A stretch of DNA of 64,000 nt. Origin: Sphingobium baderi (GTDB lineage: Bacteria; Pseudomonadota; Alphaproteobacteria; Sphingomonadales; Sphingomonadaceae). The position numbers and the translations under genes were made by a program. The notes under the pieces are model-generated. The model did no database searches. It saw only the letters and a list, made by a program, of their open reading frames with translations, and was not told the DNA's origin. How positions within the stretch are numbered: the first letter of the stretch is position 1; every line of letters begins with the position of its first letter. The DNA is taken from the NCBI RefSeq assembly GCF_001456115.1, contig NZ_CP013264.1:2994501-3058500 (forward strand), read 5' to 3'. Positions 48,690 through 63,046 of the stretch are shown here, one piece after another.

Positions 48690-49358
48690 GTTCGAGCGGA
48701 AGGCCGTATCACTTCATCTCGCAATATACGCTCGGTTTCCGTTATCCGAATGGGGATTGCCGCAGTTATTGAGCGACGCAGTGCAAGTTATCCTTGCCCA
48801 GTTCGGCTCCCGTTCCGCTATTTCCTGGGCTGGAAGCTGATGCGGCTTGTAAGCCCCTCTAACGCGCCTCTCACTCATACGCGACGTTCCGCAGCGATCA
48901 AAGCGGCCTGATAGGCCGCATCCTCACCCATAATCGCACGCGCTGTCGCGATTAGTTCAGGACTCGCATTACGTGGACGACCCGTATCGAACGGGGGGCT
49001 GGATCATATTCGATCGCGAGTTACGTAATTTTTGCAGTCTCTTCACCCCGAAGTTTCGCAAGAAGACGGATTCCGAAATCGATCCCCGCGGTCATGCGAA
49101 GGCCAAAGCTGTGAACATAGCCGTCATGCACGTCGAAACCATATTGGAGGCAGCCGTCGAACCGGATGATCTGGAATTGGCGCTGCCTCTCATGAGCCGC
49201 CTGCAGGAGGCCATGATCACATGAACTAGGCCGGGTCTCTCCAATCTCTATGGATTCAAGCGTGACGGCCCCTTCACCGAGTGCCGATTTCAGCGTGGTG
49301 CGACAAATGTAGACCGATTCAAGTAGGGATTGCTGAGCTATGCCGGCTACCAATCATC
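48690..49358. other. gene-poor stretch with a possible gene remnant
   Basis: About 670 bases with no supportable complete gene. It is less GC-rich than its surroundings. On the minus strand, 48875-49003 is open and reads like protein (GRPRNASPELIATARAIMGE and on to AALIAAERRV) but has no start codon, suggesting decay. It separates the envelope genes from the metal region and is a plausible old junction. Confidence 0.4.
48875..49003 (-). pseudogene. start-less C-terminal gene remnant
   Basis: A 42-codon open stretch ending in TGA encodes PFDTGRPRNASPELIATARA and a following Ala/Glu-rich helix. The frame is closed upstream by a stop at 49004-49006 with no ATG, GTG or TTG at its beginning. Family unknown. 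Confidence 0.25.
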
Positions 49359-49375
49359 GTCAGGGTTTCGTCAGG
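49359..49375. promoter_or_regulatory. tandem GTCAGG box 1 (VIT promoter)
   Basis: GTCAGG-GTTTC-GTCAGG: two direct repeats with an 11-base period, ending 42 bases before the VIT start codon. Same architecture as boxes 2 and 3. OmpR-family regulators bind tandem repeats of about 10-11 bases. Confidence 0.65.
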
Positions 49376-49417
49376 AAAGACTGTTGAACTTTTTCACGGC
49401 ATTTTACGAAGGACACC

Positions 49418-50119
49418 ATGAGCCGACTAAGATCCCATCCCGAACGCCATGCGGTGTCACGCATCGGCTGGCTACGCGCGGCAGTGCTGGGAGCCAATGA
49501 TGGGATCGTTTCGACCGCGAGCCTCATCGTCGGCGTCGCAGCCTCCGGCGCGGGCAAGGCCAATATCCTGGTCGCAGGGATGGCGGCGCTGGTGGCAGGC
49601 GCCATGTCGATGGCCGCCGGCGAATATGTCTCGGTCAGCTCTCAGGCGGACACGGAGAATGCCGACCTCGCCCGGGAAAGAGGTGAACTCGCCGTTCAAC
49701 CGGTGCTCGAGCATCAGGAACTGGCGGACATCTATGTCAAACGCGGTCTGAATGAGGAACTGGCCCGGCAGGTAGCCGACGAACTAATGGCAAAGGATGC
49801 GCTGGCCGCGCATGCCCGCGACGAACTCGGCATTTCCGAAGTCGTGACCGCCCGCCCTATCCAGGCCGCGCTCACATCCGCCGCAACTTTCAGCACAGGC
49901 GCCCTCATGCCCCTGTTGTTGGTCGCCGTCGTTCCGCATGATAGCCTCGTCGCAATCGAGGTCGCGGCAACCCTGTTGTTTCTCGCACTGCTGGGCGCGC
50001 TTGGCGCCTGGGCCGGGGGCGCCCGCCCCATGAAATCAATCCTACGGGTCACATTCTGGGGCGCGCTGGCCCTGGCTGCGACCGCGGGCATCGGGAGGCT
50101 GTTCGGAACAGTGGTTTGA
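49418..50119 (+). CDS. VIT-family iron/manganese transporter
   Basis: 233 residues. The VIT/CCC1 signature is clear: LRAAVLGANDGIVSTASLIVGVAA and GAMSMAAGEYVSVSSQADTE, which carry the transport-site Asp, Met and Glu residues. About five membrane segments; a cytoplasmic helical region (about 90-140) lies between segments 2 and 3. Family members move Fe2+ or Mn2+ out of the cytosol. Its promoter has tandem box 1. A 14-base palindrome, GTGGTT-TG-AACCAC, spans the stop codon (50111-50124). Confidence 0.92.
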   Translation: MSRLRSHPERHAVSRIGWLRAAVLGANDGIVSTASLIVGVAASGAGKANILVAGMAALVAGAMSMAAGEYVSVSSQADTENADLARERGELAVQPVLEHQELADIYVKRGLNEELARQVADELMAKDALAAHARDELGISEVVTARPIQAALTSAATFSTGALMPLLLVAVVPHDSLVAIEVAATLLFLALLGALGAWAGGARPMKSILRVTFWGALALAATAGIGRLFGTVV

Positions 50120-50136
50120 ACCACGCTGCTCACATC

Positions 50137-50153
50137 GTCAGGATTCGGTCAGT
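50137..50153. promoter_or_regulatory. tandem GTCAGG box 2 (cytochrome b561 promoter)
   Basis: GTCAGG-ATTCG-GTCAGT, 11-base period, ending 38 bases before the ATG of the cytochrome gene. One mismatch (T for G) in the last position of the second half. Confidence 0.62.
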
Positions 50154-50191
50154 GAACACCCGTAGCCCTTCCAGCTGGAAAGGCGAACGTG

Positions 50192-50881
50192 ATGACAAAT
50201 TCTGAATATACAAGGACATTCAAGGTTTGGGACACGCCGCTACGGCTATTCCATTGGCTGCTGGTCCTAGCGATCTCGATCGCGTTTCTCTCTTCCGACG
50301 ACGATAGTCCGATCGCATCGTGGCATATGGTCGCAGGATGGTCTGCTGCTGCCTTGCTTGCGTTCCGTCTGATCTGGGGCTTCGTCGGAGGCGAGCATGC
50401 CCGGTTCGTGAATTTCATTCGGCCAACAGCAATCGCCACCCATGCACGCGACCTTCTAGCTGGCCATCCTCGACGTTCCGTGGGTCATAATCCACTGGGC
50501 GCGATCGCAGTCGTGGCGCTGATCGGATTGACCGGAATCGTCATCTGGAGCGGCAGCAGCGTTGCGGCAGGCGGCATGGACAAAGACCTTCATGAAACCC
50601 TCGCCTACAGCCTGCTTGCTTTGATCGGGCTTCATGTCGGCGCCGTGCTGTTGATGTCGCTGCTCACCGGCGAAAACCTTGTTCGCGCGATGATCAGCGG
50701 CCGCAAGAAGAACAGCCTCTATCCGAATGTGCGTGAGGCTCGGGGACCAGGCTTGTTTGCGGCTCTACTTGGTGCCGCAGCGATCGTTCTGGCAATCATC
50801 GCCATTGTCATGGTGGATCCGACCGCCTTCGCGCCGCAGCAACGCCATTCCCATCACGGTTCGCACGAGGAAAGGGATTGA
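50192..50881 (+). CDS. cytochrome b561-type di-haem membrane protein
   Basis: 229 residues. FKVWDTPLRLFHWLLVLAI opens a cytochrome b561/Ni-hydrogenase b-type fold, with membrane His residues in LFHW, in ASWHMVAGW, in KDLHETLAY and in GLHVGAVLL as likely haem ligands across four segments. The C-terminus has one more membrane segment and a His-rich tail (RHSHHGSHEE) that could bind metal. The ATG at 50192 is preferred to a GTG at 50189. Tandem box 2 lies upstream, so it is probably in the same regulon as VIT and the RND pump. Confidence 0.88.
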   Translation: MTNSEYTRTFKVWDTPLRLFHWLLVLAISIAFLSSDDDSPIASWHMVAGWSAAALLAFRLIWGFVGGEHARFVNFIRPTAIATHARDLLAGHPRRSVGHNPLGAIAVVALIGLTGIVIWSGSSVAAGGMDKDLHETLAYSLLALIGLHVGAVLLMSLLTGENLVRAMISGRKKNSLYPNVREARGPGLFAALLGAAAIVLAIIAIVMVDPTAFAPQQRHSHHGSHEERD

Positions 50882-50959
50882 AAACATCGGTTGATGGTCT
50901 GGTAGAAAGCTTCAATCCTTCTTGCCTTTCGTTCCTGGTGGAAAGTCTACATTAAACCC

Positions 50960-51637
50960 ATGCGCCTTCTCATCGTCGAAGATAATGAGCGAATGGCGGC
51001 ACTGATCGCCGACGGTCTTCAGCGCCGGGGCTTCGTGTGCGATGTTGCCCATGATCTCGCACAAGCCGACGCTGCGATGGGCAGCGCGAGCTATGATGCC
51101 ATCATACTCGACCTCGGCCTGCCCGACGGCGACGGGATCGACTGGCTCGCGAGCCGCCGAAAATATCAGCAGATGCCGCCTGCCATCATCCAGACCGCGC
51201 GTGGGGCGCTGGAGGATCGCGTCACCGGTCTCGATTCCGGCGCAGACGATTATATCGTCAAACCCTTCGAGATCGACGAGCTCGCCGCGCGCATCCGCGC
51301 CCTGCTGCGCCGGCCTGGCGTTCGAACCCAGCCCGTCATCGAAGTCGGCATGCTGCGTTTCGACACGGCAAGCCGCTCTGCCAGCATTGGCGATCGCGAG
51401 ATCGACCTTTCGCGCCGCGAGGCGGACCTTCTGGAACTGCTGATGCGGCGAGCCGGCACGGTGGTCCATCGCGAAGTGATCGAGAACGCGCTCTACAGCT
51501 TCAACGATCCGGTGACCCCCAATGCGGTCGAAGCCGCCATTTCGCGTCTGCGCCGCAAGCTCGAAGACACGGGCGTGGCCGGCGCGCTCCATACCGTTCG
51601 GGGTGTCGGCTATATGCTGAAGGACGGGAAGGCATGA
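50960..51637 (+). CDS. OmpR-family response regulator
   Basis: 225 residues. Receiver domain with acidic pocket VEDN (Glu7-Asp8), phosphoacceptor Asp51 (LDLGLPDGDG) and Lys in VKPFE; winged-helix DNA-binding domain about 125-222 (RREADLLELLMRRAGTVVHREV; AISRLRRKLE). QseB/PmrA-like. It overlaps the sensor-kinase gene by 4 bases. It is encoded in the middle of the three tandem GTCAGG promoters and is the natural candidate to bind them. Its own promoter shows no such box. Confidence 0.94.
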   Translation: MRLLIVEDNERMAALIADGLQRRGFVCDVAHDLAQADAAMGSASYDAIILDLGLPDGDGIDWLASRRKYQQMPPAIIQTARGALEDRVTGLDSGADDYIVKPFEIDELAARIRALLRRPGVRTQPVIEVGMLRFDTASRSASIGDREIDLSRREADLLELLMRRAGTVVHREVIENALYSFNDPVTPNAVEAAISRLRRKLEDTGVAGALHTVRGVGYMLKDGKA

Positions 51638-52650
51638 CCGTGCAGCGCTCCATCTCACGGCGCCTCAAACGCGGTTTGGGCCTGATTGGTGTGGCGGGCA
51701 CCGTTCTGCTGCTGGCGGCGGTCGCCTTCTTCTACAGTGTCACCTTCACACATCTCGATGCACGCGCGGCGATGATCCGCGCGATCAAGGAAATGCTTGA
51801 GCATGTCGCTCTGCCGCTTGTCGTCCTGCTCGTTCCCGTCGCGATCATGGTGCTCCGAGTGATCCGCCAGGCCTTCGCACCGCTGGAAGATGCCGCCGCC
51901 CGGATCGAGGCTGCACAGGGCCACGAACGAGGGTTCCGCATCGATGCGTCGCAAATGCCCGCCGAGGCGCTACCCTTCGTCTATGCGGTCAACGATCTGT
52001 TGGCGCGGCTCGATCAGGCCGCGCGGCGGCAGGAAGCGTTCGCCGCCGACGTCGCGCACGAGTTGCGCACGCCGCTCGCCCTCCTGTCTCTCGAACTCGA
52101 CCGGCTTGACTATGACGACGCCGCGCGCCTCAAGGAAGACGTGGCGGCCATGCGCCGGCTGATCGACCAACTCATGCTGCTCGCGCAGATCGACGCGGCG
52201 GAGGCCGCCCAGACCGCTCCCGAACAGGTGTCACTCGCGGATGTGGCGAGCGAGGTCGTCAGCGCCGTGGCGCCGGGGATCATCGCACAAGGCAAGCTGA
52301 TCGCGTTCGATACCCGCGGTCAGGCTGCGGTCGTGAACGGCAGGCGCGAAGCGATTGCGGCAGCGCTGCGCAATCTGATCGAGAATGCCGCGCGCGTGAC
52401 GCCGGCTGGTGGCACGATCCAGGTCTTCGCCGGCCCCCACGCGCTATTGGGCGTGCGGGACGAGGGCCCTGGGCTGGCGCTCGAAAGGTTGCGCGACCTT
52501 GTGCAACGCCACCGCCGCGCCGACCATGCGAGCAAGGATGGCGCCGGCCTCGGCCTCGCTATCGTCGACCGGATCATGGCGGCCCATGGCGGCACGCTTG
52601 AGACCGATCCGGCCGACCGTGAACTGGTGCTGCGTTTTCCCGCGACCTGA
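51634..52650 (+). CDS. sensor histidine kinase
   Basis: 338 residues. Two membrane segments (about 16-36 and 58-76) enclose only about 20 residues of periplasm. The H-box is VAHELRTPLALL with His142; N-box LRNLIENAARV, G1 VRDEGPGL and G2 GAGLGLAIV follow. The short loop suggests sensing within the membrane or through a partner. The gene overlaps the response regulator by 4 bases. Confidence 0.93.
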   Translation: MTVQRSISRRLKRGLGLIGVAGTVLLLAAVAFFYSVTFTHLDARAAMIRAIKEMLEHVALPLVVLLVPVAIMVLRVIRQAFAPLEDAAARIEAAQGHERGFRIDASQMPAEALPFVYAVNDLLARLDQAARRQEAFAADVAHELRTPLALLSLELDRLDYDDAARLKEDVAAMRRLIDQLMLLAQIDAAEAAQTAPEQVSLADVASEVVSAVAPGIIAQGKLIAFDTRGQAAVVNGRREAIAAALRNLIENAARVTPAGGTIQVFAGPHALLGVRDEGPGLALERLRDLVQRHRRADHASKDGAGLGLAIVDRIMAAHGGTLETDPADRELVLRFPAT

Positions 52651-52669
52651 TCTTCAATCCTCATATCCC

Positions 52670-52686
52670 GTCAGGGTTCGGTCAGG
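52670..52686. promoter_or_regulatory. tandem GTCAGG box 3 (RND operon promoter)
   Basis: GTCAGG-GTTCG-GTCAGG, a perfect pair of 6-base repeats with an 11-base period, ending 21 bases before the RND adaptor start codon and 20 bases after the kinase stop. Confidence 0.68.
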
Positions 52687-52707
52687 AACGCTCCCTAGCC
52701 CGAGCGC

Positions 52708-53820
52708 ATGTCCAGACGATACACCCTCATTGCGGGCGCCGCGACGATCGCCTTGATTCTATCAGGCCTGTGGTGGTTCGCCAGTCGACCGGTCGAGACG
52801 GGCAACTCCGCGCCGGCAAGCAACGCCCAACCGACAGATGGGATCCTGGCGGTGGATGCGCGCCGCGCCGCGCAGATGGGTATCCGCCTTATGCCCGCGA
52901 CGGCAGCCGCGGATGCGGCGCTCGCCACCATCCCCGCGATGATCGAGCCTCCCGCCAACGCCCGGGTGGCGGTGGCCGCGACCTTTCCCGGCACCGTGTT
53001 GCGGACTCTCGTGGTCGAGGGCGACAGCGTGCGGCGGGGCCAGCCGCTGGCGATCATCGCCAGCCGCGACGTGCTGACGATCGGCGCGGACCTCAGCCGC
53101 GCGAACGCGCGGCGTGGCGTAGCCGAGGCCAATGCCGCGCGGCTCTCCCTGCTCAGCCGCGAAGGCATCATCGCAGGCGCGCGCGCTGACGAAGCCAATG
53201 CCATCGCAGCCGAGGCTCGCGCCGACGTTTCGGAAAAGTCGCGCATCCTGGCGATGGTGGGCGGTCATGGCGCCAGCGGCTCCTATACGCTGACGGCTCC
53301 TATCGCGGGTCGCGTCACCAGCGCCTCCATCCAGACCGGCAATCCGGTGGACGGCACCACCGCGCCCTATGTGATCGACGCGACGGATCGCTATGAAGTG
53401 GTCGGCCAATTGCCCGAACGGCTGATCGGGCAAGTGCGCCCCGGCATGAGCGTGCGGCTACTTCCCAACCTCACCGGCCGGATCGTCGCGGTGGGAACGG
53501 CCATCGATCCCGCGACCCGTTCGGCCGGCCTCAAGGCGGAGATTCCGGCCGGACCCGGTGTTGTCGCGGGGCGCGCAACCAGCATCGTCATCGTCGGCCC
53601 GGCGCCGGCGGGCGCGGTCAGCGTGCCCGATACGGCGGTCACCATGATCGACGGCAAGCCGGTTGTGTTCGTGACCGCGCGCGGCGGCTTTGCCGTGCGC
53701 GCCGTGACCGGCGGCAGCGGCAGTGATGGCCGCACGGTGCTGCTCTCCGGGATCAGGCCCGGTGAACAGGTGGTGGTTTCCGGTACGAGCGCGCTCAAGG
53801 CGCTCGCCACCGCGCAATAG
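52708..53820 (+). CDS. RND heavy-metal efflux adaptor (CusB/CzcB-like)
   Basis: 370 residues with an N-terminal anchor or signal (about 7-25). Lipoyl halves are at TFPGTVLRTLVVEGDSVRRGQPL and TLTAPIAGRVTSASIQTGNPV with a helical hairpin between. Barrel and membrane-proximal domains follow (VVGQLPERLIGQVRPGM). It joins the RND pump to the outer-membrane channel. First gene of the operon adaptor-pump-DUF3240-TolC; 9 bases before the pump. Box 3 lies in its promoter. Confidence 0.9.
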   Translation: MSRRYTLIAGAATIALILSGLWWFASRPVETGNSAPASNAQPTDGILAVDARRAAQMGIRLMPATAAADAALATIPAMIEPPANARVAVAATFPGTVLRTLVVEGDSVRRGQPLAIIASRDVLTIGADLSRANARRGVAEANAARLSLLSREGIIAGARADEANAIAAEARADVSEKSRILAMVGGHGASGSYTLTAPIAGRVTSASIQTGNPVDGTTAPYVIDATDRYEVVGQLPERLIGQVRPGMSVRLLPNLTGRIVAVGTAIDPATRSAGLKAEIPAGPGVVAGRATSIVIVGPAPAGAVSVPDTAVTMIDGKPVVFVTARGGFAVRAVTGGSGSDGRTVLLSGIRPGEQVVVSGTSALKALATAQ

Positions 53821-53829
53821 GCTCTCCCG

Positions 53830-56800
53830 ATGCTGCGTTCGCTTGTCGCCACCGCGCTGTCCTATCGTCTGCTCGTCCTGATCCTTGCCGCCGCCACGGC
53901 CGGGCTCGGGGTCTGGGCTTTTGTCAACTTGCCGGTCGATGCCTATCCCAACATCGCGCAGACCCAGGTGAAGCTGATCCTCAAAGCCCCCGGCATGACG
54001 CCGGAGGAGGTCGAGAGCCGCGTCATCACGCCGATCGAGACGGAGATGCTCGGCATTCCCAACCAGGCGATCCTGCGCTCGAGCGCCAAATATGCCATCG
54101 CCGACATAACCATCGACTTTACCGACGGCACCGACATCTACTGGGCGCGCCAACAGGTCGCCGAACGGCTGGCGGGCGTGACGGGCGATCTGCCTGCTGC
54201 CGTGACCGGCGGTCTCGCGCCGATCTCGACGCCCCTGTCCGACGTCTACATGTTCACGATCGAAGGGCCGCTGTCTCTCCAGCAGAAACGCGAACTGCTC
54301 GACTGGACGATCCGCCCGGCGCTGCGCACAGTGCCCGGCGTCGCGGACGTGAACGCGCTGGGCGGCTATGTTCGTACCTTCGAGGTCCGGCCTGATCCGG
54401 TGGCGCTGGCGAGCGCGAAGCTCTCGATCTCCGATCTGCGCACCGCGATCGAAAGCGGCAATCGCAATGACGGCGCGGGGCGCCTGACCGATGGCGAGGA
54501 ATCGCTGATCGTCCGAGCCGTGGGCGCGATCCGCAGCGTGGAGGATCTGCAAACGCTGGTCATCGCCAGCCGGGACGGCCGCATCGTCCGCCTGGGCGAC
54601 GTCGCCACAGTCGGCACCGGCAGCCTCACCCGCTATGGGGCGGTGACGCGCGGCGGCAAGGCCGAGGCGGTGGAGGGCCTGGTGATCGCGCTGCGCGGCG
54701 CGGATGCGCGGGCGGTGGTCGATGGCGTGCGGACGCGGCTTGCCGGGCTTCAGCACAGCTTGCCCGCAGGCACGCAGATCCATGTCTTCTACGATCGCTC
54801 CGATCTGATCGGGCGCGCGGTCGGCACGGTCGAGGAGGCGCTGCTGGAAGCGACCGTGCTGGTCGTCGTGCTGCTGATCCTGTTCCTCGGCGACTGGCGT
54901 GCGGCCACGATCGTCGCGGCGACCCTGCCGATGGCCGCGCTCATCACCTTCCTGTTCATGCGCGGCATGGGGCTGTCCGCGAACCTCATGAGCCTCGGCG
55001 GGCTCGCCATCGCGATCGGGATGCTGGTCGACGGCGCGGTGGTGGTGGTCGAGAATGTCGTCGAGCGCCTGAGCCATGCCCAGGGCGAGGACACGCCCCG
55101 ACTCAACCACGTATTCCGCGCAACCAGCGAGGTGATCGTGCCGGTGTCGGCGGGCATCGTCATCATCGCGCTCGTGTTCCTGCCCCTGCTTTCGCTGCAG
55201 GGGCTGGAGGGCAAGCTGTTCGCGCCCGTCGCGCTCACCATCGTCTTCGCGCTCGCGGGCTCCCTGCTGCTCGCCCTGACGCTGGTGCCGGTCCTTGCCT
55301 CCTTCAGCCTCAGGAGCGGCCATCATGGTGAGCCATGGATCATGCGGCAGATCGGCCCACGCTACCAGGCGCTGCTCGACGCGGCGTTCGCGCACAAGAA
55401 GCTGGTCTATGGTCTCTCCGCCACCGGGCTGGTGCTGGCGGGCCTCGCTTATGGCGCGGCCGGGAAGACCTTCATGCCGACGATGGACGAAGGCTCGGTG
55501 ATCGTGCAGCTTACCAAGCTGCCCTCGATCAGCCTGGACCAATCGGTGGCCGGCGACATGGCGGTGCAGCGCGCGCTCCGCACCGTGCCGGAGGTGGAGG
55601 ACGTGATCGCCCGCGTCGGCTCCGACGAGATCGGTCTCGATCCGATGGGACCGAACGAGACCGACAGCTTCGTCCAGTTGAAGCCGCGCTCGCAATGGCG
55701 CGGGGACAAGGATTTCGTCGTCGGGGAAATGCGCAAGGCGCTGGACGGCCTGCCCGGTATCCAATCGAGTTTCACCCAGCCGATCGAGATGCGCGTCTCG
55801 GAGATGCTCACCGGCGCGCGCGGCGATCTAGCGGTCAAGATTTTCGGGCCTGACACCGCAACGCTCGCCGAGCTCGCGGGTCGGATCCAGCATATCCTGT
55901 CCGGCATCCACGGCTCATCGGAGGTCCTGACGGTCGCCAACGACAATGTGGACTATCTCCAACTCGACATCGACCGCGCGGCAGCGGGGCGGTTCGGGAT
56001 GCCGGTCGACCAGCTCCAGGACGCGCTGCGCGGACAGGTCGAGGGCGTGCGGTCCGGGGTCGTGGCCGAAGGTCAGAAACGCATTCCGATCGTCATTCGC
56101 GGTGACGACGGCATCCGGAGCGATCCGGCCCGTTTCGCCGACCTGCAATTGCGCACGCCCGATGGCACGCTGGCGCGTGTCAGCGACATGGCGCGGGTGG
56201 AGCGCACGCAGGGACCGGTGAAGCTCGATCACGAGAACGGCTCGCGCTTCGCGCTGGTGCAGGCCTTCGTCTCCGGCCGCGATCTGGTCGGCTATGTCGA
56301 TGAGGCGAAGGCGCAGGTCACCGCCAAGGTACGGCTACCGGCAGGCTACAGCATCGTCTGGGGCGGTCAGTTCGAGAACCAGCAGCGCGCATCGGCCCGG
56401 CTGATGATGGTGGTGCCCGTAGCGCTGGTGTTGATCTTCCTCGTCCTGCTGGCGGCGCTGCGCTCATTGCGCGCCGCGCTGCTGATCCTCTCCAACATCC
56501 CCTTCGCGATGGTCGGCGGGCTGATCTCGCTGTGGCTGTCGGGCGAGTATCTCTCGGTCCCGGCGTCGGTGGGGTTCATCGCCCTGCTCGGCATCGCCGT
56601 GCTCAATGGGTTGGTGCTGGTGGCCTATTTCCGCCAGTTGCGCGCCGACGGGGTGGGTATGGCCGAGACCGTGCGCCTGGGCGCGCAGCGTCGGCTGCGA
56701 CCGGTGCTGATGACTGCCGGCATCACGGCCTTCGGCCTCGTCCCCCTGCTGTTCGCCAGCGGGCCGGGGTCCGAGATCCAGCGGCCGCTCGCGATCGTGG

Positions 56801-56901
56801 TGATCGGCGGCCTCATTACCTCCACTTTGCTGACGCTGGTCCTGCTGCCGATCCTGTTCGAGCGCTTCGGGGAAAGCGCCGGGGAGGCCGCTAATGCCTG
56901 A
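53830..56901 (+). CDS. heavy-metal RND efflux pump (CusA/CzcA family)
   Basis: 1023 residues, normal for this family, with twelve membrane segments in two sets. In segment 4 the sequence is GGLAIAIGMLVDGAVVVVEN, giving Asp401 and Glu408 for proton transfer. The DFG motif of Zn/Co/Cd pumps (CzcA) is absent, as in CusA-type pumps. The neighbouring copper-receptor-like genes also point to copper or silver, but the substrate is inferred. The stop overlaps the DUF3240 gene by 8 bases. Confidence 0.93.
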   Translation: MLRSLVATALSYRLLVLILAAATAGLGVWAFVNLPVDAYPNIAQTQVKLILKAPGMTPEEVESRVITPIETEMLGIPNQAILRSSAKYAIADITIDFTDGTDIYWARQQVAERLAGVTGDLPAAVTGGLAPISTPLSDVYMFTIEGPLSLQQKRELLDWTIRPALRTVPGVADVNALGGYVRTFEVRPDPVALASAKLSISDLRTAIESGNRNDGAGRLTDGEESLIVRAVGAIRSVEDLQTLVIASRDGRIVRLGDVATVGTGSLTRYGAVTRGGKAEAVEGLVIALRGADARAVVDGVRTRLAGLQHSLPAGTQIHVFYDRSDLIGRAVGTVEEALLEATVLVVVLLILFLGDWRAATIVAATLPMAALITFLFMRGMGLSANLMSLGGLAIAIGMLVDGAVVVVENVVERLSHAQGEDTPRLNHVFRATSEVIVPVSAGIVIIALVFLPLLSLQGLEGKLFAPVALTIVFALAGSLLLALTLVPVLASFSLRSGHHGEPWIMRQIGPRYQALLDAAFAHKKLVYGLSATGLVLAGLAYGAAGKTFMPTMDEGSVIVQLTKLPSISLDQSVAGDMAVQRALRTVPEVEDVIARVGSDEIGLDPMGPNETDSFVQLKPRSQWRGDKDFVVGEMRKALDGLPGIQSSFTQPIEMRVSEMLTGARGDLAVKIFGPDTATLAELAGRIQHILSGIHGSSEVLTVANDNVDYLQLDIDRAAAGRFGMPVDQLQDALRGQVEGVRSGVVAEGQKRIPIVIRGDDGIRSDPARFADLQLRTPDGTLARVSDMARVERTQGPVKLDHENGSRFALVQAFVSGRDLVGYVDEAKAQVTAKVRLPAGYSIVWGGQFENQQRASARLMMVVPVALVLIFLVLLAALRSLRAALLILSNIPFAMVGGLISLWLSGEYLSVPASVGFIALLGIAVLNGLVLVAYFRQLRADGVGMAETVRLGAQRRLRPVLMTAGITAFGLVPLLFASGPGSEIQRPLAIVVIGGLITSTLLTLVLLPILFERFGESAGEAANA

Positions 56902-57193
56902 CCTGCTGTTCACCCTCCATTGCGCCACCCGCGATACCGAGCTTCTCGTGGACGCGATCCGCGCCGTCTCCCCCACGCCAATCCATGTCCGCGGGGAAGC
57001 TGTGCGAGGTCGCGATTTTGGCGATGCGGGAACCGCCGAGCGCGTGTCGGGCGAATTGAAGCGTTCGACGCTCGAACTGATCGTGAGCGCGGACGCGGTG
57101 CCCGACCTGCTCCGCACCGTAAAAGACGCGCGGCGCGATCTGCCGGTCCGGTGGCGCACGACGCCCCTGCTCGATCATGGAAGGATCGCCTGA
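56894..57193 (+). CDS. DUF3240 (PII-like) small protein
   Basis: 99 residues. The sequence PDLLFTLHCATRDTELLVDA opens a ferredoxin-like PII fold; DUF3240 proteins are regularly encoded beside CusA/CzcA pumps and are thought to be small cytoplasmic regulators. Here it lies between pump and outer-membrane channel and overlaps the pump by 8 bases and the TolC gene by 1 base. Confidence 0.83.
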   Translation: MPDLLFTLHCATRDTELLVDAIRAVSPTPIHVRGEAVRGRDFGDAGTAERVSGELKRSTLELIVSADAVPDLLRTVKDARRDLPVRWRTTPLLDHGRIA

Positions 57194-58431
57194 TGCGGAT
57201 CGTACTCGCCGCTCTCGGCCTTCTGACGGCCGCGCCTGCCCTGGCCCAGCATACCGATCTGCCGCCTGCCGACAAGGTCAACGAAGCGCTCGACAATCAC
57301 CCCAGCGTCGCCGCCGCAATTGCGCGCGTCGAAGCCGCACGGGCACGCGGCGATATGCTGCGCAAAGGCCCCCACGAAGTGACGGTGAGCGGCAGCTACA
57401 TTCGCCGAACCGTCGATCGCGAAGGCGGGTTCGACGAATTCGATACGACAATCAGCCGCCCATTCCGCCTGCCGGGCAAGGCCGCGCTCGACCGCGAAGC
57501 CGGTGCGCTCGGCATTGAGGTCGCGGAAAACCAGATGGAGGATGTCCGCCATCAAACCGCGCTGCTGCTGGCCGGCTATTGGCACGACTGGCTCACTGCG
57601 GGAAGCCATTATCGCAACGATCTCGACAGCGTCCGCGGGCTGGAGGAGGCAATCGCCGCCATAAAGCGGCGGGTCACGCTGCGAGACGCCGCCCAACTCG
57701 ACCTCGACCAGGCGCAGGCGGCGCTGGCTCAGGCGCGCGCGCAGGCCGCATCGTCACTCTCGCTGCGCGAACAGGCGCGCGTGACCTTCGCAGCGTCCTT
57801 TCCGGAAATCCCGCTCCCCTCCGAACCACCAGAACTGGCCGACCCCATGCTGCCCGCCCAGGGGCTGGAAGCGATGCGCGACCTGGTAATCGAGCGCAGT
57901 CACGAGATCCGCGCCGCCGACAAGGAAGCGCAGCGTCTGAACGTGACTTCGCGTCGGGTGCGAGCGGATCGCATCGCAGACCCGAGCTTCGGCGTCCGCC
58001 TGTTCAGCGAGCGCGGCGGCGCGGAAGCCGGCGCGGGCGTGGTGGCTTTAATCCCGCTCGGCGGTGGCTATCGCAGAGCCGCAGCCGATCAGGCGTCAGC
58101 CGAGGCCAATGCCGCGCGCATGGAACTCGCGGCCGTGCAGCGCAGCATCGAGGCGACCGCCAATGCCGACCTTTCCAACGCGCACACCCGGCTCGATGCC
58201 TGGCGCAATGCCGACGCTTCGGCGCGCAGCGCCGGCGACGCCGCCGAAAGGACGGTGCGCGGTTACCAACTCGGGCAGATCGACCTCTCCGATATGCTCT
58301 ATGCCCGCCGGCAGGCCAATGACGCGCGCCGAATGGAAATCGAGGCGCGCTCCGAAGCCGATCGTGCTCTGCTCAAGATCCAGATCGATTCCCACAGCAT
58401 CTGGGCACCAGATGAAGCGGGGCACGACTAG
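57193..58431 (+). CDS. TolC/CzcC-type outer-membrane efflux channel
   Basis: 412 residues with signal peptide 1-18 (PALA). Two outer-membrane-efflux repeats (VNEALDNHPSVAAAIARVEA; GLEAMRDLVIERSHEIRAAD) and long helices. No lipobox. It completes the RND tripartite pump. The ATG overlaps the DUF3240 stop (TGATG). Confidence 0.9.
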   Translation: MRIVLAALGLLTAAPALAQHTDLPPADKVNEALDNHPSVAAAIARVEAARARGDMLRKGPHEVTVSGSYIRRTVDREGGFDEFDTTISRPFRLPGKAALDREAGALGIEVAENQMEDVRHQTALLLAGYWHDWLTAGSHYRNDLDSVRGLEEAIAAIKRRVTLRDAAQLDLDQAQAALAQARAQAASSLSLREQARVTFAASFPEIPLPSEPPELADPMLPAQGLEAMRDLVIERSHEIRAADKEAQRLNVTSRRVRADRIADPSFGVRLFSERGGAEAGAGVVALIPLGGGYRRAAADQASAEANAARMELAAVQRSIEATANADLSNAHTRLDAWRNADASARSAGDAAERTVRGYQLGQIDLSDMLYARRQANDARRMEIEARSEADRALLKIQIDSHSIWAPDEAGHD

Positions 58432-58491
58432 CTAACATACGGCAAGCAAACATTCTCGACATGAAACGAGCCTGCACTTAGAGGATGCTGC

Positions 58492-58890
58492 GTGACCGAA
58501 GCTCGCAAATTCCTTGTCCGGCACCATTGGCTGTGCGCGCTCCTGCTAGGCGCTGCGCTGCTCGTGAAGGCGTTGGTGCCGGCGGGTTTCATGCCGGTCG
58601 TCTCGAATGGCGTGATCCTGGTCCAGCTGTGCTCGGGGCAAGGGCCTCAGAAGATCGCAATCAAGTTGCCGAGCAAAGGCGGCGAGCAGGACCATGACGA
58701 GCACAAGAAGGCGGAAGCGCCTTGCGCCTTTACCGGCCTGTCCTCGCCATCGCTCGCGGCCGTCGATGCGCTGCTCCTAGCCGTCGCCCTCGCCTTCATC
58801 CTCGCAACGGTTTTTCGGCGTCCAAACCGCCTAGTCCTCCGGCGCGGCACCTATCTGCGCCCGCCGGCGATCGGTCCTCCCACCACCTGA
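58492..58890 (+). CDS. DUF2946 membrane protein
   Basis: 132 residues, start GTG. A hydrophobic segment (HHWLCALLLGAALLVKALVPAGFMP) and a second one (AAVDALLLAVALAFILATVF) surround a loop with His/Asp/Cys (EQDHDEHKKAEAPCAF). DUF2946 proteins are commonly next to copper-related TonB receptors, as here. Exact role unknown. Confidence 0.8.
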   Translation: MTEARKFLVRHHWLCALLLGAALLVKALVPAGFMPVVSNGVILVQLCSGQGPQKIAIKLPSKGGEQDHDEHKKAEAPCAFTGLSSPSLAAVDALLLAVALAFILATVFRRPNRLVLRRGTYLRPPAIGPPTT

Positions 58891-58914
58891 TTCCTTCGAC
58901 ATTCCCCGTTGATG

Positions 58915-58935
58915 GGCGCCCCTCGCCGGGGCGCC
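58915..58935 (+). promoter_or_regulatory. GC-rich hairpin before the copper-receptor-like gene
   Basis: GGCGCCCC at 58915-58922 pairs perfectly with GGGGCGCC at 58928-58935 around a TCGCC loop. It starts 24 bases after the DUF2946 stop and ends 22 bases before the receptor ATG, with the AGGA ribosome-binding site just beyond it. Without a T-run it is a weak terminator; it may influence receptor translation. Confidence 0.5.
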
Positions 58936-58957
58936 GCATGTGAATCAGGATTCCGAC

Positions 58958-61192
58958 ATGACGATTATGCTTGATTCCGCGCATTGCGCGGCAACCACCA
59001 TGCCTGCCTTCGCTCGCTCCACCAGCAAGCAACCAACTTTCAAGGTTCGCCTCGCCGGGAGCTTCGCTTTTCCCGCACTCGTCGCTGTGCTGGCGGGCGC
59101 CCCCATCTCGCGAGCCTTCGCCCAGGACGGGACGCCGCTGCCAGAGGTCGACGTTAGCTCGGCGAGCGAGGCGGGGTCGACGGTTTCGGGTGAGCGGCTT
59201 TCCCCCTCGCGCCTGCGCGACCTTCAGGTCGGCTCGAGCGATACCGCAGCGATCCTGCAAAGCGTACCCGGCGTCAGCGGCTATGGGGCCGGGGGCTTCT
59301 CGACCTTGCCGGTGATCCGGGGCCTTGAAGCGCAGCGCTTGACCGTGCTGGTCGACGGCGTGGCGATTGCCTCGGCCTGTCCGAACGATATGAATCCGCC
59401 CCTGTCCTACACCGATCCGCAAACCGTGAGCGCGATCGACGTCATTACCGGCGTTTCGCCAGTCAGCTATGGCGGCGACAGCATCGGCGGGATCATTCGC
59501 GTCGAGAGCGCTCCGCCCCGCTTTGCTAAGCAAGGGGAAACGCTGCTGACCGGCGAAACCTCGGCCTTCTATCGCAGCAATGGCGACGGGTTCGGCGGCG
59601 CCCTGTCAGTGACGGCCGCGAGCGACAAGGTCAGCCTGACTTACAATGGCTCCTACACTCAAGCCGACAATTTCAAGGGCGGCGGCTCGCTGGGCGTCGT
59701 GCGATCCAGCGAATATGCCAAGACCGACCACAGCCTCAATCTCGCAGCGCAAGTCAGCAACGGCCTGATCGAGCTGAAAGGCGGCTATCATTTCGCGCCC
59801 TATGAGGGTTTCCCGAACCAATATATGGACATGACGTCCAACAAGTCGTGGTTCCTGAACGGCCATTATGCCGGCGTCTTCGATTGGGGCAATCTCGATG
59901 TGCGGGCGAGCTGGCGCGACACCGACCACGTCATGAACTTCCTCGCCGACAAGGGCGGGACCGCGACCGGCGGGATGCCGATGAACACGGAGGTCCACAG
60001 CGCGAGCTATACCGTCCAGGCGGATATATTGCTCGGCGGCGGCACGCTGCGCCTGGGCAGCGAATTCCAGCATCAATGGCTCAACGACTATTGGCCGCCC
60101 GTTGTGGGCAATATGATGATGGGGCCGAATGCGTTCATCAACGTCAACGGGGCCAAGCGCGATCGGCTCGGCACCTTCCTCGAGTGGGAAACGCGCTGGG
60201 ATAGCGGTTTCTCCCTCATCGCCGGCATCCGTAACGATCAGGTCTGGATGAACACCGGCAAGGTCGCGCCCTATGGCACCGGCATGATGCAGATGGCCGA
60301 TGTCATGGCGGCAGCGGCGTTCAACAAGGCCGACCGCAAGCGCCACGACAGCAATTGGAGCGGCAGCCTGCTGGTCCGCTACGCGCTTTCGGACGGGGCG
60401 GATATCGAGATCGGCTATGCCCGCAAGGTTCGCTCGCCCAATATCTACGAGCGCTATAGCTGGGGCCGGGGCAGCATGGCGAGCCGCATGATCGGGTGGT
60501 TCGGCGACGGGAACGGCTATGTCGGCAACCTCGACCTTCGCCCCGAAAAGGCCGATACGCTGAGCGCCGCCCTGGCCATTTCCGGAGGCGGCAAGGATGG
60601 CTGGTCGTTCAAGATCGCGCCCTATTACACCCATGTCGACGAATATATCGACGCCTTTAAGCTGGCGGACTTCACCGACATGATGGGCAGTCCGACCGGG
60701 TTCGTTCAATTGCAGTTCGCCAACCAGAAGGCAGAGATCTACGGCATCGACATATCGGGCGCCGTGCCGCTATGGTCATCGTCGTCGGCCGGCACCGCGC
60801 GTCTGACCGCGCGCGCGAGCTGGCTGCACGGCCAGAATCTGACCGACCACGCACCGCTCTATCACCAGATGCCGTTCAATGCGGCGCTGAGCCTCGAGCA
60901 TCGGATCGGCGGCCTCGAAACCCGGATTGACCTCGACATCGTGACGGAAAAGGATCGCGCCGATCCGACCCGCAACGAACCGCGGACGGGCAGCTACGCG
61001 CTGCTCAATGTCCAGCTCGCCTATCGCATCGACAAGGTTCGCCTGACGCTCGGCGCCGACAATCTGTTCGACAAGGCCTATTATGCTCCGCTTAGCGGCA
61101 TGTCGCTCGGCGATCTGAAGGCGACCGGCGTGCGCCGCCCGGTTCCGGGCCGGGGGCGATCGGTCAACGCCGGGATCACGATTGCGTTTTGA
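58958..61192 (+). CDS. TonB-dependent copper receptor (OprC/NosA-like)
   Basis: 744 residues. Signal peptide ends near AFAQD. The plug domain has STLPVIRGLEAQRLTVLVDG and then ACPNDMNPPLSY, where Cys141 and Met145 form the CxxxM motif that binds copper in OprC. The barrel contains Met-rich loops (NMMMGPNAF; GTGMMQMADVM) and ends in ITIAF. It would take up copper, or a copper complex, using TonB. AGGA 7 bases before ATG 58958 sets the start; a GTG at 58940 is the alternative. Confidence 0.88.
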   Translation: MTIMLDSAHCAATTMPAFARSTSKQPTFKVRLAGSFAFPALVAVLAGAPISRAFAQDGTPLPEVDVSSASEAGSTVSGERLSPSRLRDLQVGSSDTAAILQSVPGVSGYGAGGFSTLPVIRGLEAQRLTVLVDGVAIASACPNDMNPPLSYTDPQTVSAIDVITGVSPVSYGGDSIGGIIRVESAPPRFAKQGETLLTGETSAFYRSNGDGFGGALSVTAASDKVSLTYNGSYTQADNFKGGGSLGVVRSSEYAKTDHSLNLAAQVSNGLIELKGGYHFAPYEGFPNQYMDMTSNKSWFLNGHYAGVFDWGNLDVRASWRDTDHVMNFLADKGGTATGGMPMNTEVHSASYTVQADILLGGGTLRLGSEFQHQWLNDYWPPVVGNMMMGPNAFINVNGAKRDRLGTFLEWETRWDSGFSLIAGIRNDQVWMNTGKVAPYGTGMMQMADVMAAAAFNKADRKRHDSNWSGSLLVRYALSDGADIEIGYARKVRSPNIYERYSWGRGSMASRMIGWFGDGNGYVGNLDLRPEKADTLSAALAISGGGKDGWSFKIAPYYTHVDEYIDAFKLADFTDMMGSPTGFVQLQFANQKAEIYGIDISGAVPLWSSSSAGTARLTARASWLHGQNLTDHAPLYHQMPFNAALSLEHRIGGLETRIDLDIVTEKDRADPTRNEPRTGSYALLNVQLAYRIDKVRLTLGADNLFDKAYYAPLSGMSLGDLKATGVRRPVPGRGRSVNAGITIAF

Positions 61193-61198
61193 GCGCCC

Positions 61199-61915
61199 AT
61201 GCTCCCGAACTCGCACGACATGAACGAGGAGCCGAGGGCAGGCTATGGCCAGCCCTCGGCCTGGTCGCAGCGCCTGGGCGCGGGCCTTGCCGCCGCGTCA
61301 TGCTGCCTGCTGGTGCTAGTGGCGCTCAATGCCAATCTATCGGGACGGCTGCGAATGACGCAGCCTGTGCAGGTGAGCCGCTTCCGGTTGTTTACCCCGT
61401 CGCCACCGTCACCACCGCCTTCAACGTTGTCGCGATCGCGGACAGACGAGGCCCGCCTATCGCCGGAGCGGCGCCCTGCGCACCCGCCCGAGCTGGCTAC
61501 GACGGGAGAAAGAGGCGGACCAGCTTCGTCGCCTATACCCGCTGCTCCAGCAATCGCCTCTCCGTTCGCTGTCGCGCCGGTAAGCAGACCGCCCGCGCCG
61601 GAACCCGAGGTCGCGCCGCCGCAAGCCCAGGATGATAAGAAACAGTCCGCGCTTGCGGCCTATCAGCGCCAGCTCTGGGCGCGAATAGCCGCGCGCAAGC
61701 CCGCGGGGATCCACCTCGACGGGGTCGCAACGGTCCGCTTCATCGTCGGGGCTGACGGCGCGCTGATTGCCGTCGAGCTGGCCGGCAGCAGCGGGAATGC
61801 CGCGCTCGATCGCCTGGCGCTCCGCACGGTGCGCAATGCTGCTCCTTTTCCAACACCGCCTATGGGCGTGGAAAGCGAGCAGTTGGTCTTTACGATACCA
61901 TTCAGCTTTCATTGA
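61199..61915 (+). CDS. tonB: TonB-family energy transducer
   Basis: 238 residues: N-terminal membrane anchor (about 28-48), Pro-rich periplasmic linker (about 63-150) and C-terminal TonB domain (about 155-235: YQRQLWARIAARKP; GVATVRFIVGADGALIAVELAGSSG). It couples the proton-motive force to the adjacent receptor. Start at 61199 or 61220. It lies 7 bases after the receptor and overlaps a minus-strand gene by 7 bases. Confidence 0.88.
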   Translation: MLPNSHDMNEEPRAGYGQPSAWSQRLGAGLAAASCCLLVLVALNANLSGRLRMTQPVQVSRFRLFTPSPPSPPPSTLSRSRTDEARLSPERRPAHPPELATTGERGGPASSPIPAAPAIASPFAVAPVSRPPAPEPEVAPPQAQDDKKQSALAAYQRQLWARIAARKPAGIHLDGVATVRFIVGADGALIAVELAGSSGNAALDRLALRTVRNAAPFPTPPMGVESEQLVFTIPFSFH

Positions 61916-62160
61916 GGCCGCATGGCGGACGAGGATGGCTCGATCGTCAATAGGGCGACGCGCACACGTTCCAGAAACAAAACACGGTGATCGTCGCGAG
62001 CCTTGATGGCAGCCTGCGCCTCATCGACAAGAGCCTGTCCGGCACGTTGCCCATGCGTCTCGATCAGTGCGAGCGCCGCCGCTATTTCCTCGGAATTGGC
62101 AGCGTCACCATCGGATGAACCTTTCCCCGGAAGCCGAAGCGATAGCTTCTTGCGCGCCAT
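61909..62160 (-). CDS. small hypothetical cytoplasmic protein
   Basis: 83 residues, not recognised. The basic start (ARKKLSLRLPGKG) is followed by two helical segments (SEEIAAALALIETHGQRAGQ; AAIKARDDHRVLFLERVRV). AAGGGTG lies before the ATG, at good distance. It follows the methyltransferase gene on the same strand (26 bases) and overlaps the tonB end. Possibly cotranscribed with the methyltransferase. Confidence 0.6.
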   Translation of the reverse strand: MARKKLSLRLPGKGSSDGDAANSEEIAAALALIETHGQRAGQALVDEAQAAIKARDDHRVLFLERVRVALLTIEPSSSAMRPQ

Positions 62161-62185
62161 ATTATCACCCTTTTCTTGAATGCTC

Positions 62186-63046
62186 TCAGGCCCGTGCGCT
62201 CACCAGCCAGGCCTTCGCCCCCATATGAACGCCATTCTCATCGCAATGGCGCTCGAACAGCTCGACAAGATGCTGGTGAATGGCCTTGCGTACCTCTGCC
62301 CCGTTCTGTCGAACAAGATCGCCGATCTGCATCCCCTCAAGCACGAAGCGAGCGGCGCTCTCGGGATCACTGCCGGGGCCGCCCACGCGCTGCTCACCTG
62401 TCCAGGCATCGAATCTGACCTCGCAGAAACCCGCGCTTTGGAGAAGGTCGATCACATAGTCCTGCTCGCCGAGCGCGAATGGTCCCGGCGCGCGCGACTG
62501 CGGCGTCGGCAGGTCCATATGCTCCTTGATGATGCCCATGACACTAAGCTGCCACGGATTGTCAGCGATGGACGCCCAGACAGCGATGTCGAGCCGCCCG
62601 CCATCGCGCAACATCCGGCGCAGATTGGCGAAAGCGGGATAAGGCTCAGCGAAGAACATCGAACCGAAGCGCGAGAACAGCCGATCGAACGGCGCTTCCT
62701 CCAGCATCGTCGTCGCGGCATCGCCCTGCTCGAAGCGGATATTGGCAAGGCCCGCGCGCTGTGCCCGTTCCCTGGCCATCCCCACCAGATCGGGTGAGAT
62801 GTCGAGGCCGAGCGCAAATCCGGTGTTGCCGACGGCCGTGGCGATCTGCCGCGTGGTCCAGCCACCGCCGCATCCGACATCGACCACCGTTTCGCCGGCG
62901 TTGTATGCGGCCTGGGCAAGCAACGCCCTGCCGATCGGCTCGATCATGCTTTCGAAGCGGTCGAGCTGGGCGAGCCAACGCATGCCCGCCTGGCCGGCCC
63001 AATCGTGCGCGGCCAAACCTTCCCTGTTCTCGCCAGCATCGTTCAT
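62186..63046 (-). CDS. class I SAM-dependent methyltransferase
   Basis: 286 residues. Motif I is VVDVGCGGGWTTRQIA, followed by LGLDISPDLVGMAR and IRFEQGDAATTMLEEAPFDRLFSRFGSMFF, the cofactor-binding pattern of class I methyltransferases (ubiE-like). The substrate cannot be named. It is 28 bases after the TauE gene on the same strand. Confidence 0.88.
   Translation of the reverse strand: MNDAGENREGLAAHDWAGQAGMRWLAQLDRFESMIEPIGRALLAQAAYNAGETVVDVGCGGGWTTRQIATAVGNTGFALGLDISPDLVGMARERAQRAGLANIRFEQGDAATTMLEEAPFDRLFSRFGSMFFAEPYPAFANLRRMLRDGGRLDIAVWASIADNPWQLSVMGIIKEHMDLPTPQSRAPGPFALGEQDYVIDLLQSAGFCEVRFDAWTGEQRVGGPGSDPESAARFVLEGMQIGDLVRQNGAEVRKAIHQHLVELFERHCDENGVHMGAKAWLVSARA

Follow-up and report, generated by a model that had tools for sequence, protein, structure and literature searches.

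Sphingobium baderi carries, in the 64,000-nucleotide window of its genome analysed here (contig NZ_CP013264.1, positions 2,994,501 to 3,058,500), three boxes of a short tandem repeat, which precede genes for a VIT family transporter, a cytochrome b561 and the periplasmic adaptor of an RND efflux system. An OmpR/PhoB-family response regulator (50960-51637) and a histidine kinase are encoded between boxes 2 and 3, where the original prediction had placed them. Sequence comparison indicates that the boxes are likely operators of this regulator, which is predicted to bind as a tandem dimer and to recruit polymerase to a -10 element downstream. The shared regulon that had been proposed is supported both by orthologous promoters and by the distribution of the repeat in genomes, since its core follows the regulator lineage and the adaptor operon.

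The box and the regulator lineage

The core of the repeat is GTCAG-N6-GTCAG, with an 11-base period and a free sixth base. The coordinates first given for the boxes (49359-49375, 50137-50153 and 52670-52686; Table 1) are correct, and the boxes do end 42, 35 and 21 bases before the next start codon, provided that b561 starts at GTG 50189 (ATG 50192 is the likelier start). The claim that the same direct repeat stands at all three promoters holds for boxes 1 and 3, exact matches with the 11-base period; box 2 ends in GTCAGT and differs from GTCAGG-N5-GTCAGG in that last base only. With up to two mismatches allowed, the window has 12 matches where shuffled sequence averages 4.89 (none of 100 shuffles reached 12), and the three best are boxes 1, 2 and 3. 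Box 3 overlaps a 348-nucleotide open reading frame (ORF) spanning the kinase and adaptor genes, which is taken as spurious.

A scan with the kinase yielded 29 loci; 21 were used (L037-L057, 69-100% identity) and eight weak ones dropped (L058-L065, 24-35% identity). Five of the 21 are almost identical to the window (99.6-100% over 18.2-21 kb). The check on orthologous promoters found the core before all 53 testable genes: 20/20 adaptors (L048 has no adaptor match), 18/18 VIT genes (L043 and L044 lack VIT and the L046 contig ends inside it) and 15/15 b561 genes. There is no b561 match in L040, L041, L046 and L048, where the regulator follows VIT, nor in L055 and L056, which keep a core 122 bases before the regulator. 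The adaptor operon of L046 has moved and inverted, with its box retained. On an S. naphthae plasmid (L121) that played no part in deriving the core, the adaptor, the PepSY-b561-regulator-kinase run and VIT are each preceded by it (3/3). The idea that b561 in loci of the L045 type lacks its own box was wrong, as the relaxed core finds one.

A search of 296 genomes from the order gave 18 regulator matches (E ≤1e-60, at least 48% identity) in 15 of them, and in 16 of the 18 the fetched 3.6 kb contains the core (within 1.5 kb of the regulator), at 32 sites in total. Fifty-nine permuted half-sites reached a mean of 0.53 of the 18 loci, with a largest value of 7 (TGACG). The two misses, L080 and L083, come from one genome and carry different helices, IASN(A/T)IPVHxxH. 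None of the 12 regulators that rank next in similarity (40-44% identity) has the core beside it; they came from a second search, covering 147 genomes, and one of their loci is just 2.2 kb. A class-wide search of 385 genomes returned 36 matches, spread over 35 of them; 28 new matches with loci (L122-L149) were examined and six without loci excluded. Outside the order the core occurs in 8/28 new loci (permutations: mean 0.47, largest 5), and all eight regulators have SRLR in the recognition helix (8/14 SRLR); it was seen in 0/13 HRLR and 0/1 YRLR regulators of this set. In a tree built from 69 distinct regulators, 35 of which have the box, the label changes twice (2-4 times in bootstraps, which had not settled) versus 23.4 times when shuffled. 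Two core sites overlapping a 1353-nucleotide ORF are found close to a more distant regulator of 43% identity with the helix RNAVEAHISRLRRKI (L086, G265).

The source genome (4,583,422 bases, 9 contigs) was searched with each pattern and, as control, with the reversed pattern. The distribution favours the regulon: exact GTCAGG-N5-GTCAGG occurs twice, both times at the island, sites with up to one mismatch number 26 versus 13 reversed, and the core 14 versus 5. Each of the 11 core matches outside the island overlaps a mechanically called ORF of 60 amino acids or more (in L095, L096 and L104 just short ones of 192-411 nucleotides), and two of the 11 have an A at the eleventh base after the box (+11). 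A genome-wide regulon was rejected on account of these overlaps, and the predicted regulon is thus local. In the source genome and 60 relatives, GTCAGGNTTNNGTCAGG has 12 sites in 8/61 genomes (reversed control, 2), ten of them in islands of this kind; the other two, L027 and L028, match GTCAGGNTTNNGTCAGG exactly and come from other families within the order. The extended pattern GTCAGGN5GTCAGN10TAG gave 10 sites in 8/296 genomes of the order (reversed, 6). Seven fall in 5 of the 15 regulator-bearing genomes, and the other three, from genomes lacking a close regulator, overlap ORFs of 690-1353 nucleotides.

Predicted promoters behind the boxes

Bases -12 and -11 belong to the sigma-70 -10 element, and the bases at +10 and +11 after the box fit them. 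The 81 distinct core sites reduce to 64 after thinning at 70% identity; 56 of these have A at +11 (mean A elsewhere 0.22), 35 have T at +10, 31 have TA and 40 have C at -1. An adaptor, VIT, b561 or regulator gene could be matched to 54 of the 81 sites, 49 of which have the A. So do 20 of the 27 unassigned sites, the seven without it being L027, L028 and five in L043, L045, L046, L050 and L055. Boxes with A at +11 that were matched to none of the window's genes lie at L046 2051-2067 and at L048 11049-11065 and 14426-14442.

The adaptor ATG stands at +22 (12 sites), +23 (6), +24 (3) or +54 (1) in 22 sites, and no obvious ribosome site is seen in the 21 bases that precede it in the window. The starts of VIT and b561 lie at +35 to +44 in 16/18 sites, several after a GGAG-like sequence. 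This spacing puts the adaptor ATG at the expected transcription start, suggesting that the adaptor mRNA begins at its own ATG and is probably leaderless; the VIT and b561 messages would have short leaders. A scan of 49000-62300 for consensus sigma-70 promoters gave four sites, all of them away from the boxes, which is what a regulator standing in for the -35 element would lead one to expect; such scans are weak evidence.

Proposed mechanism and rival explanations

The boxes have the features of an OmpR/PhoB operator, a direct repeat with a constant 11-base period that is conserved across loci, and regulators of this family bind direct repeats as tandem dimers, according to the accessible part of PMC4832192. 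In the mechanism that we propose, the kinase would sense a metal or an envelope or redox cue through its short periplasmic loop and phosphorylate the regulator, which is predicted to bind GTCAG-N6-GTCAG as a head-to-tail dimer. Positioned at -38 to -22, this dimer would stand in for the -35 element, and polymerase would be recruited to the predicted -10, 9 bases downstream of the 17-base box. The b561, regulator and kinase genes may form one unit; the promoter at box 2 probably also serves the pair, through b561, and the regulator would then be expected to activate itself.

Several observations weigh against this reading. Box 1 of the window breaks the -10 rule, with its A at +12, and is one of five exceptions among assigned sites. 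The strict form failed at L070 and L076, and the half-site was then shortened from GTCAGG to GTCAG; the 12 regulators used for comparison, the 28 loci from the class-wide search, L120 and L121 were fetched after that step. Strict GTCAGGN5GTCAG precedes 20/20 adaptor and 16/18 VIT genes and just 7/15 b561 genes. The core also occurs without A at +11 inside the pump/DUF3240 stretch of several relatives, where it is probably fortuitous coding sequence (L043 15283, L045 15288, L050 10355 and L055 15288 (-), L046 6568 (+); antisense to genes), and the sites L027 and L028, likewise without the A, are unexplained. Six of the 14 class-wide SRLR regulators have no core within the fetched flanks; SRLR alone was rejected as a rule, this residue pair being not sufficient. 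In nine relatives the DUF2946-like gene lies upstream of VIT, and four of them have no core there (none within 2 kb in L051, L052 and L057, none in the 1.46 kb held by L041). Independent events are few, with two changes on the tree and many near-copy loci. Judged from these sequences, the box is the property of a few lineages, a strong association and not many independent events.

The same regulator could instead act at the boxes as a repressor until the kinase signal changes, and a site at -38 to -22 could equally block polymerase. The sigma-70 scan, with no consensus site at a box, speaks weakly against this, and the available portions of PMC4660055 and PMC3973317 describe PhoB and PmrA as activators; repression seems improbable. 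We think it somewhat less probable still that a different transcription factor, encoded elsewhere, reads the boxes and that the neighbouring pair is merely a target. The link between box and regulator does rest on co-occurrence, but the core goes with this lineage and is missing beside the 12 next regulators and the two with another helix. It is also present in both plasmid copies examined, and an unlinked partner would be needed each time. There is very little chance that the repeats are functionless and owe their likeness to shared ancestry or to a recent duplication of the island. A 21-kb block is 99.6-100% identical in four named genomes, with 18.2 kb of it in a fifth, and such near-identical copies are not independent; at ~50-75% regulator identity, however, the core and the +11 A persist between diverged flanks, and the three boxes of the window precede unrelated genes. 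Activation by the adjoining regulator remains our preferred account of the boxes.

The island, its proteins and known systems

Table 1. Features of the island (positions in the window)
Feature	Position	Strand	Basis or remark
Box 1, GTCAGG-GTTTC-GTCAGG, GTCAGGGTTTCGTCAGG	49359..49375	+	Exact match, upstream of VIT gene
VIT family transporter gene	49418..50119	+	Pfam PF01988, 229 bits
Box 2, GTCAGG-ATTCG-GTCAGT, GTCAGGATTCGGTCAGT	50137..50153	+	Upstream of b561 (probably b561-regulator-kinase)
Predicted -10 TAGCCC of b561 promoter, 9 bases after box 2	50163..50168	+	Sequence; inferred
Cytochrome b561 gene	50189..50881	+	Pfam PF01292, 69.8 bits; ATG 50192 likelier start
OmpR/PhoB-family response regulator	50960..51637	+	PF00072 80.3 bits, PF00486 75.3 bits, both above cut-off
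Recognition-helix region of regulator (V185-L201), VTPNAVEAAISRLRRKL	51512..51562	+	Alignments
Histidine kinase, short periplasmic loop	51634..52650	+	PF00512, PF02518; membrane layout by eye
Kinase E53-x3-H57, edge of second membrane segment	51790-51804	+	Kinase alignment
Box 3, GTCAGG-GTTCG-GTCAGG, GTCAGGGTTCGGTCAGG	52670..52686	+	Exact match, head of RND operon
Predicted -10 TAGCCC of RND operon	52696..52701	+	Sequence; inferred
RND periplasmic adaptor	52708..53820	+	TIGR01730 115.3 bits, above cut-off 94.9; ATG at box +22
CusA/CzcA-family RND pump	53830..56901	+	TIGR00914 989.1 bits, above cut-off 701.45
DUF3240 protein	56894..57193	+	PF11582
Outer membrane efflux protein	57190..58431	+	PF02321
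132-aa DUF2946-like ORF	58492..58890	+	No family match; 60-base gap after efflux protein, no box
TonB-dependent receptor	58940..61192	+	PF00593, PF07715; TIGR01778 below cut-off
TonB-like protein, last gene of presumed box-3 operon	61199..61915	+	ORF; homologs adjoin receptor in relatives

Family searches bear out the labels VIT, b561 and RND adaptor (PF01988, PF01292, TIGR01730); the DUF2946 label of 58492..58890 found no such backing, as a search with the 132-amino-acid ORF gave no match. A homolog of the TonB-like protein is annotated as a TonB family protein on plasmid pMI2. The pump (53830-56901) carries AIGMLVDGAVVVVEN, which in the Nies scheme is AIGX3DGAX3VEN (HME5, tentatively nickel) and not the CusA form. 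The motif argues mildly against copper or silver, and a copper/silver link of the regulon is not shown. A nickel study of Sphingobium ba1 reports induction of an OmpR-type regulator/CopS pair, which the part of PMC5557971 at hand does not tie to this locus.

No fourth box precedes the DUF2946-like or receptor genes in the window, as first noted, and its absence is explained if the DUF2946-like ORF, the receptor and the TonB gene belong to the box-3 operon. The gaps before these three are 60, 49 and 6 bases, and a terminator scan found no + strand terminator-like site in them, nor between b561 and the regulator. Among the nine relatives with the DUF2946-like gene upstream of VIT, L045, L047, L049, L055 and L056 have a core ~1.54 kb before it (5/9), and the rule that receptor genes standing apart always get a fourth box failed. 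The operon explanation is plausible, and a fourth box exists in some relatives but not in all. In L045 (2925-4265) and on pMI2 (L120, 1171-2511) a fourth boxed unit begins with a ferric reductase-like gene, which is followed by the DUF2946-like gene, the receptor and the TonB gene.

The stretch 41634-62647 recurs over 21 kb, at 99.6-100% identity, in S. phenoxybenzoativorans, S. chlorophenolicum (99.995% in strain NBRC 16172), Sphingomonas sp. Y57 and Hephaestia caeni; S. jiangsuense shares 18.2 kb of it (L037, L038, L039, L042 and L053 are the block loci); this block is probably a recent transfer. Plasmid CP021183.1 of Rhizorhabdus wittichii DC-6 matches just one end of the queried stretch, at 49300-50460 (12% of the query, 99.7%).

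The regulator combines a receiver domain with a winged-helix Trans_reg_C domain, as OmpR/PhoB-family members do, and its best solved relative is BasR/PmrA (E 2.1e-50, residues 1-222). It scores below the cut-offs of the NCBIfam PmrA equivalog model (205.5 of 330 bits), of the PhoB (152.5 of 296.2) and QseB (172.8 of 345) models and of the CusR/CopR/CzcR subfamily TIGR01387 (189 of 279.2). The CusS/CopS kinase subfamily TIGR01386 is likewise missed (146.4 of 292.55 bits). In the kinase, E53 and H57 are both kept in 28/30 aligned rows and are a possible metal-sensing site. The exceptions are L080 (without H) and L083 (without both), the same loci whose regulators lack the box.

Two known operators are close. 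The PmrA box is a tandem hexamer-N5-hexamer, a geometry shared here together with the full-length likeness to the PmrA/BasR structure, and the pho box half-site is TGTCA, so that PhoB sites resemble ours in the 11-base direct repeat and the GTCA inside the half-site; PhoB differs in its phosphate regulon and in the other half-site flanks. The island regulator keeps PmrA residues N188 and R198 at the same numbering, whereas S195-R196 replace H195-N196, and R196 would presumably occupy the position of PhoB Arg201. Arg201 hydrogen-bonds a guanine, as given in an excerpt of PMC3973317; in PmrA, bases are contacted by N188 and N196, and the contacts of H195 are hydrophobic, as given in one of PMC4660055. 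Both excerpts have PmrA binding tandem half-sites head to tail, and the former gives a TTAA-type half-site, 5'-TTTAAG-3', unlike the GTCAGn found here.

Other systems are alike in part. Salmonella PreA/QseB is PmrA-related, activates adjoining operons and raises a cytochrome b561 gene (PMC2653508, in part), yet differs in gene content. UzcR of Caulobacter crescentus, also alphaproteobacterial, answers U, Zn and Cu and has envelope and transporter targets; it was considered as the owner of the motif and rejected, its half-sites being CATTAC-N6-TTAA in the available text of PMC8963506, not GTCAG. CusR/CopR/CzcR pairs resemble the island pair, which adjoins a CusA/CzcA-type pump, but differ by the subfamily scores given above. 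The portions seen of PMC12864828, PMC8224329 and PMC10133563 give no motif letters. The motif string, in several spellings, was absent from the open literature searched, and topic searches there gave no publication recognised as describing the operator, most matches being unopened. The operator and regulon are best read as new in sequence and known in kind, a tandem operator of the PmrA/PhoB type.

There is about an even chance that these loci represent an unnamed alphaproteobacterial regulator family with a portable promoter (the core, a -10 at fixed spacing and the S195-R196 helix). Travelling on plasmids and islands, it would couple divalent-metal RND efflux, b561 or ferric reductase-like electron transfer and VIT, with a leaderless adaptor message. 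A little-studied alphaproteobacterial two-component lineage gains a concrete predicted operator and a predicted regulon of three promoters, and a simple protein-DNA rule is proposed that sets helix residues against the half-site. The arrangement suggests that one signal governs metal efflux together with membrane redox proteins, and that translation of an RND adaptor commonly begins on a leaderless mRNA.

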